NCBI RefSeq assembly: GCF_900240285.1
Contig: NZ_OESS01000002.1
Span: 620,001-684,000 of the forward strand
Length of the DNA stretch: 64,000 nt
Origin: Halobacillus sp. Marseille-P3879
GTDB taxonomy: Bacteria; Bacillota; Bacilli; Bacillales; Halobacillaceae
Direction: 5' to 3'
Both the position numbers and the translations under genes were made by a program. Below the pieces are notes generated by a model. That model did no database searches, had not been told where the DNA came from, and worked only from the letters and a program-made list of their open reading frames with translations. Below are positions 56,948 through 60,720 of the stretch, in pieces; within the stretch, counting starts at the first letter, position 1, and each line of letters begins with the position of its first letter.

Positions 56948-58783
56948 ATGGCAGACATACACTTAATGCCGGATCATCTCGCTAACAAAATCGCAGCCGG
57001 GGAGGTAGTTGAACGCCCGTCCTCGGTAGTGAAAGAATTAGTTGAAAACAGTATTGATGCGGACAGCACCTGGGTGGAAATCGAACTGAAAGAAGCGGGA
57101 CTTGAAAGAATTAGAGTGACCGATAACGGGAATGGTATGGACGGGGAAGATGCGAAGCAAGCGTTCTTTAGACATGCTACGAGTAAAATTCAAAATGAAC
57201 AAGACTTGTTCCATGTAAGAACACTCGGCTTCAGGGGTGAAGCCCTCGCAAGTATCGCTGCAGTGAGTAGATTAACAATTAAAACTTCCCAGGGAAATGA
57301 GGCAGGAACAAAGCTGGAACTTGCCGGAGGGGAGGTGCTCTCCGAAGGGAAGAGTGATGCTCGTAAAGGAACAGAGATTATTGCAGATGAACTTTTTTAT
57401 AATACTCCTGCCAGGTTGAAGTATATGAAGACGATTCATACCGAACTAGGTCATATTACAGACGTACTAAACCGTATGGCCTTGGCGAACCCAACGGTGA
57501 AATTCACATGTAAACATAATGACAAAGAACTATTTCGTACAAATGGGCGCGGGGATTTGCTGCAGGTCGCAGCTCAGATTTATGGCATGAAAGTAGCTCG
57601 TAAAATGGTACCTGTTCAGGCGGAAACCAAAGACTTTAAGATTCACGGATATGTAGCCAAGCCTGAAATTTACCGTGCTTCAAGAAGTTTTATTTCAACT
57701 ATAATAAATGGGCGCTATATTAGGAATATAATGCTGAATAAAGCAGTGCTTCAAGGCTATCATACTTTACTCCCGATTGGAAAAAGTCCGATTGTTGTTC
57801 TAAATATCGAAATGGATCCCATTCTAGTGGATGTTAATGTTCATCCTGCCAAGCTTGAAGTTCGCTTTAGTAAAGAGAAAGAGTTGTTTGAACTACTAGA
57901 AGAAACGATTCGTGAATCCTTTAGAACCCAGACCCTTATACCAGAGGTTGAATATCAACCGGCAAAGAAAGAGGTCCCTTATCAAAAACAGGAAAGCCTT
58001 AAACTTTATGATTATGAGAATCAGGTGCAGGAACCATCCATCCCCCGGGTTTCACGCCAGGAAGAGGGGAGAGGAGAAGTGGATGAGCGCACGGAGATTC
58101 TTATAAATGAAAACAAGCAGTCGGTTGAGCATCCGATTGAAACAACTGATGTTTCCGATCTGGTTGCGGATCAGGAGCCAACCAAACCTCCTTCGCCAAA
58201 ACGAGTGCCTTCGATGCATCCTATTGGGCAGTTACACGGCACCTATATCCTTGCCCAAAATGAAGAAGGTATGTATATCGTAGATCAACATGCCGCACAA
58301 GAGCGAATAAAATATGAATATTTCAAAGATAAAATAGGTGAAGTAAAACATGAGGTACAAGAACTTCTTGTGCCGATGACATTTGATTTTCAAAGAAAAG
58401 AAGCTTTAAAAATTGAAGAATTTAAAGAGCAGCTGGAAAAAGTAGGTCTTTTCTTTGAAAATTTTGGAGAAAATAGTTATATTATTCGCTCTCATCCCCA
58501 GTGGTTTCCTGAAGGCTTTGAAGAAGAAGTCATTCAAGATATGATAGAACAGCTGATGAAAGAGGAAAAAATTGATATTGCTAAGTTGAGGGAAGAAGCA
58601 GCCATTTTAATGTCTTGTAAACGTTCGATTAAAGCGAATCACTATTTAAATCACCATGACATGTTTCAGCTGCTCGAAGAACTCAGGAATTCTACAGATC
58701 CATTTACATGTCCGCACGGAAGGCCGATTATTGTTTTCTTCTCGGAATATGAATTGGAAAAGATGTTTAAGCGTGTAATGTAA
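56948..58783 (+). CDS. mutL: DNA mismatch repair endonuclease MutL
   Basis: 611-aa GHKL ATPase plus endonuclease. N-terminal motifs are [19 protein letters not shown] and FRGEALAS. The linker (about 335-420) is variable. The C-terminal endonuclease site [12 protein letters not shown] starts at D446 (form DQHA-X2-E-X4-E), with SCKRSIKAN and CPHGRP. QELLVP fits a clamp-binding motif. This nicking type is normal where MutH is absent. The ribosome site is AAAGGAGGGTG. Confidence 0.97.
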
Positions 58784-58820
58784 AAAAAGCATGGCTCCGT
58801 TTTGGAGTCATGCTTTTTTT
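58782..58820. terminator. Bidirectional terminator between mutL and the XRE gene
   Basis: Seven A, then GCATG-G-CTCC, a short T-rich loop, GGAG-T-CATGC and seven T. Symmetry lets it serve mutL on the plus strand and the convergent regulator gene on the minus strand. Confidence 0.93.
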
Positions 58821-58835
58821 GTTTACATAACAGAA

Positions 58836-59195
58836 TTATGAAGGGTGATTTTGCTGTAATAGAAAACGAAAGTAATTTTCAATTTGGTGAATCTCTTCCG
58901 GCTGAACTTTCAACCATGAATTTTTGTCAAAAATCACTGAACGATCAAAACCTCTATCTTCAAGGAATTGCTTAATTTCTCTGATCTCATCTTCTTTCTC
59001 ATCACTCAAACCAAGTAAATAGTCCGCTGTCGTATGAAGGGCATGGGCAATTTTGGACAAATCCTCAAGGTCAGGGGAGGTATATTGACGCTCCCAATTC
59101 GAAACTACCTGGGCTGAAACACCGACTTTTTCGGCCAACATCGTTTGCGTGAGACGCCGTTTCTTACGTAATGTTCGAATTCGCTGATTAACCAC
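58836..59195 (-). CDS. XRE-family transcription regulator
   Basis: 119-aa regulator, the only convincing minus-strand gene in the window. Residues 4-58 form a Cro/C1-type HTH (IRTLRKKRRLTQTMLAEKVG, VSAQVVSNWERQ, DLSKIAHAL). The C-terminal 60 residues are charged and helical and could dimerise or sense a ligand. The start is GTG behind AAAGGAGGAG. I do not recognise an equivalent at this position in B. subtilis. A phased repeat array lies in its promoter region, next to the divergent miaA. Confidence 0.9.
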   Translation of the reverse strand: MVNQRIRTLRKKRRLTQTMLAEKVGVSAQVVSNWERQYTSPDLEDLSKIAHALHTTADYLLGLSDEKEDEIREIKQFLEDRGFDRSVIFDKNSWLKVQPEEIHQIENYFRFLLQQNHPS

Positions 59196-59216
59196 TTCAT
59201 ACTCCTCCTTTTCTTT

Positions 59217-59244
59217 ATATTATCACAAAACTAACGAAAGTCGA
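59217..59244 (-). promoter_or_regulatory. Candidate promoter of the XRE gene
   Basis: On the minus strand TCGACT (59244-59239) and TAATAT (59222-59217) are 16 bases apart. The first ACTAACG repeat falls between them, as expected for autorepression. Confidence 0.4.
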
Positions 59245-59317
59245 TACACAAACTAACGAATTCTTTGATTTTTACTAACGATATCCGTTAGTTGTGGTAA
59301 CGGATATCGTTAGTTTA
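59230..59317. repeat. Four 22-bp-phased ACTAACG operator repeats
   Basis: Copies of ACTAACG begin at 59230, 59252 and 59274, and a variant GGTAACG at 59296, exactly 22 bp apart. The last two extend into palindromes with CGTTAGT at 59286-59292 and 59308-59314. A 16-bp perfect inverted repeat (59274-59289 with 59299-59314) spans them. The layout suggests cooperative binding of the adjacent XRE regulator. Confidence 0.85.
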
Positions 59318-59326
59318 TGCTGTGAG

Positions 59327-59355
59327 TTAGCATTGTAGAGCGATTCATGTATAAT
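59327..59355 (+). promoter_or_regulatory. Candidate sigma-A promoter for miaA-hfq
   Basis: TTAGCA (59327-59332) and a perfect TATAAT (59350-59355) are 17 bases apart. The repeat array ends about ten bases upstream, so the XRE regulator could affect this promoter too. Confidence 0.65.
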
Positions 59356-59385
59356 GGAGTAGGAATAAAAAAGGAGTGAATTAGA

Positions 59386-60321
59386 GTGAAACCGCACGTG
59401 GTTAGCATTGTTGGTCCTACTGCAGTTGGAAAAACAGAGTTAGCTGTGAAATTAGCTCAGCAATTTAACGGTGAAGTGATCAGCGGAGATTCCATGCAAG
59501 TCTATAAGTCGATGGATATCGGTACAGCTAAAGTTACAAGTGCAGAGATGGAAGGTATCCCTCACCACATGATTGATATTAAGCAACCAGACGAAACTTT
59601 TTCAGTTGCTGAGTTTCAAGAAAGAACAGCTTCTTTAATCGATGAAATAACAAAGCGCAATCGACTTCCTGTAATTGCGGGTGGTACGGGATTATATATA
59701 CAAGCCGCGCTGTTTGATTTCAATTTTTCAAATGAAAAAAGGGACCCTGAAGTCATTGAAAAGCTGGAGAAAGAGTGTGAAGATCAAGGAATAGAGGAAT
59801 TACATACAAGGCTGAAAGCAATTGATCCGGTTCAAGCTGGTAAAATTCACCCCAATAATGTCAGAAGGGTGATCAGGGCTCTTGAGGTTTACGAAACAAC
59901 CGGACGGACTTTAAGCGAGAACCATGAGGCACAAACGCAGGAGGCACCTTATCATCCCCACATTATTGGTTTAGAAATGGAACGCGGCGTTTTATATGAA
60001 AGAATTAATAAACGTGTCGAGCTTATGGTTAAAGCCGGATTGGAAGAAGAGGTTCGGCTTTTATACGAAAAAGGGTATGAAGATTGCCAATCGATGAAAG
60101 CGATAGGCTATAAAGAGTTTATCCCCTATTTTAAAGGGGAACAAAGTTTTGATCGCACAGTTGAACTTTTAAAAAGAAACTCCAGGCGCTATGCGAAGCG
60201 GCAGCTTACTTATTTCAAAAATAAGCTGGATGTTCAATGGTACAATGTAGGTTCTTCGAAAAAACAAGATACTATTGAAAAAATTTTGCGGGATTTAGCA
60301 GGAATGCTCGAAGAAACCTAG
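59386..60321 (+). CDS. miaA: tRNA dimethylallyltransferase
   Basis: Adds a dimethylallyl group to A37 of tRNAs reading codons that begin with U, making the substrate for MiaB. P-loop GPTAVGKTE is at residues 10-18, with SGDSMQVYKSMDIGTAK following. Length is 311 aa. The start is GTG behind AAAGGAGTG. hfq follows by 38 bases, the common miaA-hfq arrangement. Confidence 0.96.
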   Translation: MKPHVVSIVGPTAVGKTELAVKLAQQFNGEVISGDSMQVYKSMDIGTAKVTSAEMEGIPHHMIDIKQPDETFSVAEFQERTASLIDEITKRNRLPVIAGGTGLYIQAALFDFNFSNEKRDPEVIEKLEKECEDQGIEELHTRLKAIDPVQAGKIHPNNVRRVIRALEVYETTGRTLSENHEAQTQEAPYHPHIIGLEMERGVLYERINKRVELMVKAGLEEEVRLLYEKGYEDCQSMKAIGYKEFIPYFKGEQSFDRTVELLKRNSRRYAKRQLTYFKNKLDVQWYNVGSSKKQDTIEKILRDLAGMLEET

Positions 60322-60359
60322 AATGGTAATAATATAGATAGAAAAGAGGAGGAAGATGT

Positions 60360-60587
60360 ATGGCACAATCAGTAAATATTCAGGATAATTATCTAAATCA
60401 ATTAAGGAAAGACCGCGTTCAGGTGACGGTATTTTTACTTAATGGGTTTCAACTGAGAGGGAATGTTAAGGCGTTTGATAATTTTACAGTCCTTCTTGAA
60501 ACCGATGGAAAACAGCAGTTAATCTTTAAACATGCAATTTCTACATTTGCTCCTGTTAAGAATATTGCCCTTGATAAAGAGCAATAA
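60360..60587 (+). CDS. hfq: RNA chaperone Hfq
   Basis: 75-aa Sm-like protein that forms a hexamer and binds AU-rich and small RNAs. [21 protein letters not shown] is the Sm1 region and [14 protein letters not shown] contains the Sm2 KHA-type motif. The short C-terminal tail is typical for Firmicutes. The ribosome site is AAGAGGAGGA. A terminator follows. Confidence 0.97.
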
Positions 60588-60626
60588 TAATGACGTGAAA
60601 AGGTTCTACTGAATATACTTAAGAAG

Positions 60627-60652
60627 CGAGCGCAGTTACGCGCTCGTTTTTC
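60627..60652 (+). terminator. Terminator after hfq
   Basis: CGAGCGC pairs perfectly with GCGCTCG around AGTTAC, followed by five T and a C. Confidence 0.93.
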
Positions 60653-60720
60653 TATGGCTGGGCGTTTGTCACGAATCCTCATTTGCAGCGTATGATACAT
60701 GGAAGCTAGGAGGGATCGGT

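Follow-up and report, generated by a model that had tools for sequence, protein, structure and literature searches.

Between the gene of a small regulator of the XRE type and the miaA-hfq genes of Halobacillus sp. Marseille-P3879 lies a run of evenly phased, partly palindromic repeats, and the question raised by this locus is which protein reads these repeats, where they come from and which of the two neighbouring transcription units they serve. The window considered here is the whole stretch of 64,000 nucleotides that was analysed, and positions refer to it unless stated otherwise. A sequence-only reading of this DNA had proposed that four ACTAACG-type units with an exact 22-bp period form the operator array of a unique XRE protein, which would control itself and perhaps also miaA-hfq.

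The phased repeats and the XRE protein

The array consists of four 19-bp operators with the consensus ACTAACG-N5-CGTTAGT, which start at 59230, 59252, 59274 and 59296, that is, at exact 22-bp steps, and which are numbered here from the miaA side without assignment to a strand. O1 (59296–59314; GGTAACG-GATAT-CGTTAGT) is a palindrome with two mismatches and O2 (59274–59292; ACTAACG-ATATC-CGTTAGT) a perfect 7-5-7 palindrome, CGTTAGT being exact at 59286 and 59308, in agreement with the palindromy previously ascribed to the last two units. O3 (59252–59270; ACTAACG-AATTC-TTTGATT) and O4 (59230–59248; ACTAACG-AAAGT-CGATACA) retain one good half-site each, the other half departing from the consensus in a set way. 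The starts and the period given in the sequence-only reading are therefore right, but ACTAACG itself is exact only at 59230, 59252 and 59274, as the fourth unit reads GGTAACG (two mismatches); likewise, the perfect inverted repeat over O2 and O1 is there, but its complementary arms measure 17 nt (59274–59290 and 59298–59314) and not 16. When the four sites are scored jointly at 22-bp steps, the top sum of the window, 47 out of 56, falls at 59230, against an average of 28.7 and a maximum of 33 for the best sums of 100 first-order-Markov windows of 64 kb, and the perfect ACTAACG-N5-CGTTAGT occurs a single time in the 4.17-Mb genome. A chance origin of the array is ruled out by these simulated windows and is untenable because the array is conserved in relatives, as detailed below.

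The XRE gene (58836–59195, minus strand; GTG start) encodes 119 amino acids, with a Cro/C1-type helix-turn-helix (HTH) at residues 6–60 and a short helical C-terminal tail, and its match to Pfam HTH_3 (62 bits, cut-off 23) places the protein among the XRE/Cro-C1 regulators. Its Pfam matches include no C-terminal S24 peptidase domain, which sets it apart from lambda-type CI repressors; it scores 60.2 bits with the RstR family (NCBIfam NF041951), under the 80-bit threshold, and 18 bits with the NCBIfam SlrR model (cut-off 250), no SinR model being among the 25 matches listed. The AlphaFold2 model (mean pLDDT 90, pTM 0.65) predicts a five-helix HTH domain plus the helical tail, and a fold search with this model (E up to 0.001) returns RghR at rank 1 and P22 C2 second, together with the arbitrium-phage protein 9iaq, SinR, DdrO and ImmR; in the matches of small rmsd, the superposition is confined to the HTH part (for instance, 0.8 Å over 60 columns with 3jxb_C). 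By sequence, the best solved relative is P22 C2 (E 1.3e-9, residues 2–62), and the nearest named relatives come from Halobacillus andaensis and other Halobacillus species. The recognition helix reads QVVSNWER, with Q29, V30 and S32–R36 invariant across an 18-row alignment.

This helix fits the pattern Q-x-x-SNWER of a clade of phage repressors with TAACG-N5-CGTTA operators, and it is the co-occurrence of helix and operator that ties the array to the protein. Two scans yielded 81 distant relatives, 13 from genomes (L063–L075) and 68 from viral contigs (L135–L202). When the 320 bp ahead of each repressor gene are searched, an exact TAACG-N5-CGTTA turns up for 40 of the 81, all of them among the 50 relatives with QxxSNWER, versus 0 of the 31 without it. 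The relatives thus divide into 40 with both, 10 with only the helix, 0 with only the operator and 31 with neither. Each of 58 permuted half-sites, taken as a control, is found in at most 1 of the 81 loci. Collapsing near-copies by their first 80 residues leaves 38, 9, 0 and 24 loci, respectively, with a Fisher value of 7e-12 that is descriptive only, because the helix pattern was fixed after the results of the operator scan. The ten helix-bearing relatives without an exact operator count against the reading preferred here. Paralogues elsewhere in the order (about 32–37% identity; 11 loci, L083–L093, of which L093 comes from outside the family) have a recognition helix of another type wherever it is printed among the matches listed; likewise among the matches listed, nine of these loci are devoid of a 10-of-14 operator, and L084 and L088 have one 10-of-14 match each, without the TAACG core. 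The assignment of the array to the XRE protein as its operator array, already suggested by the sequence-only reading, is thus well supported by comparative sequence evidence. The regulator, on the other hand, is not unique as had been claimed, but belongs to a large clade of phage-type repressors, and the helix-operator match predicts the binding sites of many prophage repressors from sequence alone.

The likely -10 region of the XRE gene (TAATAT/GATAAT; 59217–59224, minus strand) is read from the sequence and from relatives, many of which show TATAAT, TATAGT or TATTAT at a similar position, 6–7 bp after O4; a consensus promoter scan of 58760–60720 missed it. Since O4 lies over the -35 region and spacer of this promoter, 6–7 bp before the -10 region, binding there should block the XRE gene. 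Self-repression via O4 is thus supported by position, and the earlier placing of one element in the likely XRE promoter is borne out.

The array across the family

An XRE orthologue is found in all 44 family genomes examined and adjoins miaA in every one of them (30 + 7 + 5 + 2 loci checked), with hfq present in 43 of the 44 loci and the contig of the remaining one (L220) ending within miaA. In L012–L015 and L024, five of 30 loci, no mutL is seen in the 1.5 kb or so covered on the XRE side, and all five retain miaA-hfq; because miaA-hfq stays where mutL is not found, the XRE gene is considered linked to miaA and not to mutL.

The term Halobacillus-type is used for 27 loci (L005–L031) from the genera g1 and g4 and the single g5 genome, all of which have four sites at exact 22-bp steps. 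Of these loci, 25 keep an intact CGTTA core at every site and two, L012 and L015, at three sites, and even the departing halves are kept, the TATCG of O4 in 27/27 loci and the degenerate TCAA of O3 in 21/27 (both read on the XRE strand). Information content averages 1.42–1.52 bits in the operator blocks versus 0.76 bits in the 12 columns beside O1 and 0.64 bits downstream of the miaA -10 box. At least three sites scoring at least 10 of 14 are present in all 37 family loci examined, but their arrangement varies, with spacings of 27/33/23 in the Thalassobacillus locus (L032), of 22, 23 and 46 in Salimicrobium-type loci (L033, L034, L076 and L077) and of 24, 46 and 24 in genus g2, where L082 has a further site 32 bp on. 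Because the number and spacing of sites differ in other genera, strict 22-bp phasing is a feature of Halobacillus, whereas the array itself is a feature of the family. In a sample of 120 genomes of the order, an exact-core pair at 22 bp occurs in five, which are the five sampled from the family, each time at the XRE-miaA locus, and 11 others have only scattered matches with two or three mismatches; a loose negative control with an 18-bp period, which leaves a 3-bp gap between cores and not 7, gives scattered matches with two to three mismatches in 25 of 249 genomes.

The expectation that relatives keeping the regulator also keep the phased repeats is thus confirmed in the 27 Halobacillus-type loci, with the gene beside miaA throughout the family, but the period as such does not extend to the other genera, nor to the phages discussed below with their 27/40/21 arrangement. 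Array and repressor gene are kept together in one family of mostly salt-loving bacteria.

Likeness to phage immunity regions

Ahead of the repressor gene, Firmicutes prophages and their relatives (L135–L199 and L063–L075) share an immunity region of four sites, which in many of them takes the form OA-27-OB-40-OC-21-OD. Among the 40 phage-type loci, the distance between the palindromes OA and OB is 27 bp in 24 and within 26–29 bp in 28, and OB is followed by OC (TCTCA...CGTTA) and OD (TATC-like...CGTTA) under a strict pattern in 19, where OC stands 40 bp from OB in 16 cases and 21 bp from OD in 18; the 21 loci departing from this strict pattern count against the preferred reading. In many of the phage loci inspected, the repressor's own -10-like box comes directly after OD. 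The family locus has the same kind of operators upstream of the XRE gene, and the Halobacillus array reproduces the four-site order, O1, O2, O3 and O4 being the counterparts of OA, OB, OC and OD, respectively: the repressor-side pair O3 and O4 has degenerate halves similar to those of OC and OD, and the -10 box is in the same place. The spacing of this pair, 22 bp in Halobacillus versus 21 bp in phages, speaks against the equation.

The other side of the region differs. A small divergent HTH (cro-like) gene was recognized by eye in all 12 phage loci read; in L135, for instance, OB sits between the TTGACA and TATATT boxes of this gene, and an operator followed by GTCAA, the complement of a TTGAC -35 box, occurs in 29/40 phage-type loci versus 1/37 family loci. 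At the family locus, miaA stands where the phages have a divergent cro-like gene whose TTGAC box adjoins OB, and because that arrangement is absent the array is described as derived from a phage immunity module and not as one itself. Within 2.5 kb after the repressor gene, a frame with HExxH is found in 18/40 phage-type loci (six of the 40 having less than 600 bp downstream), and all six scanned frames of these 18 are M78 peptidases. In contrast, M78 (PF06114) has no match at E 0.001 in the whole window genome (G000); of 13 genomes searched, 8 have matches, G000 and G001 having none, so that proteolytic induction by M78 is unlikely in these two. No integrase is seen beside the XRE gene, and the locus is not on a recognisable mobile element.

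Two further results bear on the ancestry. The 27-bp pair of the Thalassobacillus array at miaA is the only such pair (with at most two mismatches) in the 44 family genomes, which fits a less altered form of the phage array. A tree in which 42 of the 81 distant rows were hand-picked and cut to 170 aa places the miaA-linked XRE proteins among phage-type repressors; it requires two changes for the miaA linkage, with weak support, which counts against the preferred reading and leaves a single capture short of proof.

The reading we favour is that the array represents an immunity operator region in contracted form, in which 27/40/21 became 22/22/22, the cro and protease genes were lost and miaA came to lie in the place of cro. 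We assign a probability of roughly 0.7 to this explanation in full, any step involving miaA excepted. A phage-type (ImmR-like, peptidase-less) repressor would have been captured with its operators into the chromosome in the ancestry of the family, and the two kept together, whereas the cro gene with its promoter, the integrase and the M78 antirepressor would have been lost and the three spacings changed, leaving miaA-hfq where cro once stood. The 119-aa protein would bind the TAACG-N5-CGTTA palindromes as a dimer, and at O4 it would block its own promoter, resulting in autorepression. The remaining three sites, which follow at intervals of two helical turns, would be co-bound and set the steepness of the response. 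Such intervals place the dimers on one face of the DNA, where they could touch, and it is from this geometry that we infer cooperativity; binding, autorepression and capture are likewise proposed from sequence and position. The series of spacings, 27/40/21 in most phages, 27/33/23 in Thalassobacillus and 22/22/22 in Halobacillus, may record the reshaping of a control region, and the unexpected part is that phage ancestry would be readable in the DNA itself, with a still legible operator region and its repressor fixed next to miaA-hfq across a bacterial family.

Several known systems resemble this arrangement in part. P22 C2, the closest solved relative by sequence, acts on palindromic operators between divergent promoters, but the sequence of its operators differs and the XRE protein lacks its C-terminal cleavage domain. 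SinR and DdrO, which have the HTH fold in common with the XRE protein despite a weak sequence relation, are instructive as captured phage-like repressors running host genes; at variance with them, the window genome has no IrrE-type (M78) partner and the XRE target is apparently mainly local. DdrO, with IrrE, is a phage-type repressor working from the chromosome (PMC8072749). ICEBs1 ImmR, of the ImmR-ImmA pair, is likewise a short HTH repressor with several operators over two divergent promoters, with six ImmR sites (PMC8960796), and the HExxH frames downstream of many phage relatives of the XRE gene add to this likeness. However, the ImmR helix differs from that of the XRE protein, the window genome has no M78 antirepressor, and at the XRE locus there is neither an integrase nor a divergent cro gene, miaA-hfq being in the place of cro. 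The TAACG-N5-CGTTA prophage clade shares helix, operator, four-site order, degenerate pair and a -10 box after the last site, but mostly has 27/40/21 spacing, whereas the XRE locus has 22/22/22 without cro or a recognisable mobile element. In the literature searched, mostly titles and the beginnings of abstracts, neither a name for this clade nor a description of the XRE-miaA array was met, which is not proof that the system is unpublished.

Possible control of miaA-hfq and other candidate targets

Whether the array also serves the genes on its other side depends on the miaA promoter. The genes for MiaA (tRNA dimethylallyltransferase; 59386–60321, plus strand) and Hfq (75 aa; 60360–60587, plus strand) are named from sequence and gene order, and the likely miaA promoter is TTAGCA-17-TATAAT (59327–59355, plus strand; -35 at 59327–59332, -10 at 59350–59355). 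It has 10 of 12 hexamer matches but rests more on conservation, because the scan found 6 promoter-like sites versus 5.2 in shuffled sequences. TATAAT is invariant in the 27 Halobacillus-type loci; the -35 hexamer (TTAGCA in the window, GTATGA in 19/27 loci) is far from consensus, which suits a promoter helped by an upstream protein and equally suits no effect at all. A block at this promoter (59325–59355), TGAGGTATGATT...TTCATGTATAAT, is conserved in most Halobacillus-type loci, though not in L012–L015, and is longer than the promoter hexamers need, so that another factor may bind here.

With its last base at 59314, the array leaves 12 bp to the likely -35 and 35 bp to TATAAT, and thus stops just before the miaA promoter, as had been noted previously. 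The gap from O1 to TATAAT is 35 bp in 26 of the 27 loci and 34 bp in L014, whereas TATAAT stands anywhere from 24 to 31 bp before the miaA start. The seven columns adjoining O1 show almost no constraint on their sequence (0.15–0.55 bits) but do not vary in number; the length of the gap could nevertheless be held by the promoter itself, because the remainder is conserved promoter sequence (1.38 and 1.29 bits in the -35 hexamer and spacer columns). If TATAAT is taken as -12 to -7, the centre of O1 is near -57. Across genera, the gap between the last operator and TATAAT is 35, 26, 48–54 or 63 bp, with no TATAAT found in three loci, so that no single contact geometry is kept in the family. Unlike at cro in the phages, no operator overlaps the promoter. 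Given the constant 35-bp distance between the array and the miaA -10 box, XRE bound there may tune miaA, and partly hfq, by touching RNA polymerase and not by occupying the promoter. This fixed spacing and the constant linkage make such control of miaA-hfq plausible, whatever its sign and its presumed inducing signal, and we rate its chances slightly under even.

Any effect on hfq would be partial, because hfq probably has its own σH promoter. An element GCAGGAATG...TAGAAT (60298–60324, plus strand) at the end of miaA resembles the σH consensus, its first part being also conserved coding sequence. The pattern AGGAWD-N13-16-GAAT precedes hfq in 28/37 family loci; this is the widened pattern, the one with a shorter spacer giving 0/37. 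For Bacillus subtilis, one study places a σA promoter before miaA and a separate σH promoter before hfq, and calls the function of Hfq in Gram-positive bacteria elusive and somewhat controversial (PMC4410918); another found just one start ahead of hfq in stationary-phase cells (PMC3574147). If acting on miaA-hfq, the XRE protein would be a candidate transcriptional regulator of this operon in Gram-positive bacteria.

The most serious alternative differs from the preferred reading in the miaA step only: the four sites would serve cooperative autorepression of the XRE gene alone, and miaA-hfq would be the neighbour that happened to be present at capture. The coverage of the likely XRE promoter by O4, the position of the phage counterparts of O3 and O4 over the repressor's own promoter, the freedom of the miaA promoter from operator overlap and the varying operator-to-miaA distance between genera all agree with such an arrangement, which nonetheless leaves it harder to understand that the far sites O1 and O2 are the better palindromes and are retained in 27 Halobacillus-type loci, that the gene stays beside miaA where mutL is not found, and that the 35-bp gap is so constant. 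It deserves real weight, at somewhat worse than even odds.

Another reading is that the XRE protein is a wider regulator, with single sites giving it control over unlinked genes as well. Matches with one to three mismatches do occur elsewhere, some between genes, and G028 has one exact site between frames (L240). In the second Halobacillus group, exact CTAACAATATCCGTTAG, one mismatch from the palindromic operator core, is found in 6/22 genomes (7 copies). In L133 (G065:C11 487000–492500), the one locus read, the first copy lies between genes, near a -10-like box and about 160 bp ahead of a 92-aa frame; the second copy is followed by an almost identical frame of the same length. CTAACAATATCCGTTAG is a possible second XRE target in that group. 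CTCACGTAATCCGTTAG (L134) is likewise intergenic and occurs in at least three genomes among the matches listed. Against a wider role, matches in the window genome are fewer than those of a reversed control pattern (71 vs 185), exact CTAACG-N5-CGTTAG occurs in 7 of 11 genomes of the host genus g1 exclusively at the XRE-miaA locus, and the exact site met most often elsewhere, in the second group, is rejected as a target for lying inside a long sensor-kinase-like frame in 9/9 loci read (among the matches listed, 21 genomes). A recurrent site in L132 was also discarded, as it falls within a frame resembling ribosomal protein L15. Of nine places in the window genome outside the locus (L235–L239, L002 and L003), three are inside a frame of at least 70 aa and the others between frames; none is phased and no convincing second target was seen. 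The system in this genome is accordingly read as local, judging from its sequence, and wider control appears improbable. In L239, around 1440–1640, several intergenic TTATCCACA-like boxes and an operator-like GGTAACTCATTTCGTTAGT lie upstream of a gene that, judged by eye, is threonine-aldolase-like.

Equally improbable is a role in superinfection immunity, in which the captured repressor would silence the lytic promoter of incoming temperate phages sharing its operators, the position at miaA being incidental. The XRE operator is indeed that of phages in the same repressor clade, but such a role does not need the fixed miaA linkage. Nor is the lack of 27-bp phage-type pairs elsewhere in the 44 family genomes a sign of exclusion, because only 3 of 299 sampled genomes of the order have one (two of the three imperfect; 0 of 12 in family genomes), and these counts lend exclusion no support. 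Slightly more remote still is a combined scheme, in which XRE would set miaA-hfq transcription and the replicating operators of an infecting phage would titrate the repressor off the array, changing tRNA modification and Hfq levels; if true, the captured repressor would serve immunity and at the same time act as an alarm connected to translation. Finally, that the array binds another protein or acts as a DNA structure (iterons, cruciform or terminator), with XRE as a bystander, is very hard to credit: the 17-nt arms could form a hairpin and the 22-bp direct repeats are of a length comparable to plasmid iterons, but helix and operator co-occur across the 81 loci, in phage relatives these sites cover the promoter of the repressor gene itself, and 58760–60720 has no terminator-like site.

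The XRE leader itself varies within the family. In L016 and L029, and judging from operator position also in L041, L054 and L056, about 57–124 extra bp separate the array from the XRE start; the leaders of L016 and L029 are alike around GTCTGAATGTT. The extra stretch may be a leader RNA or a small insertion.
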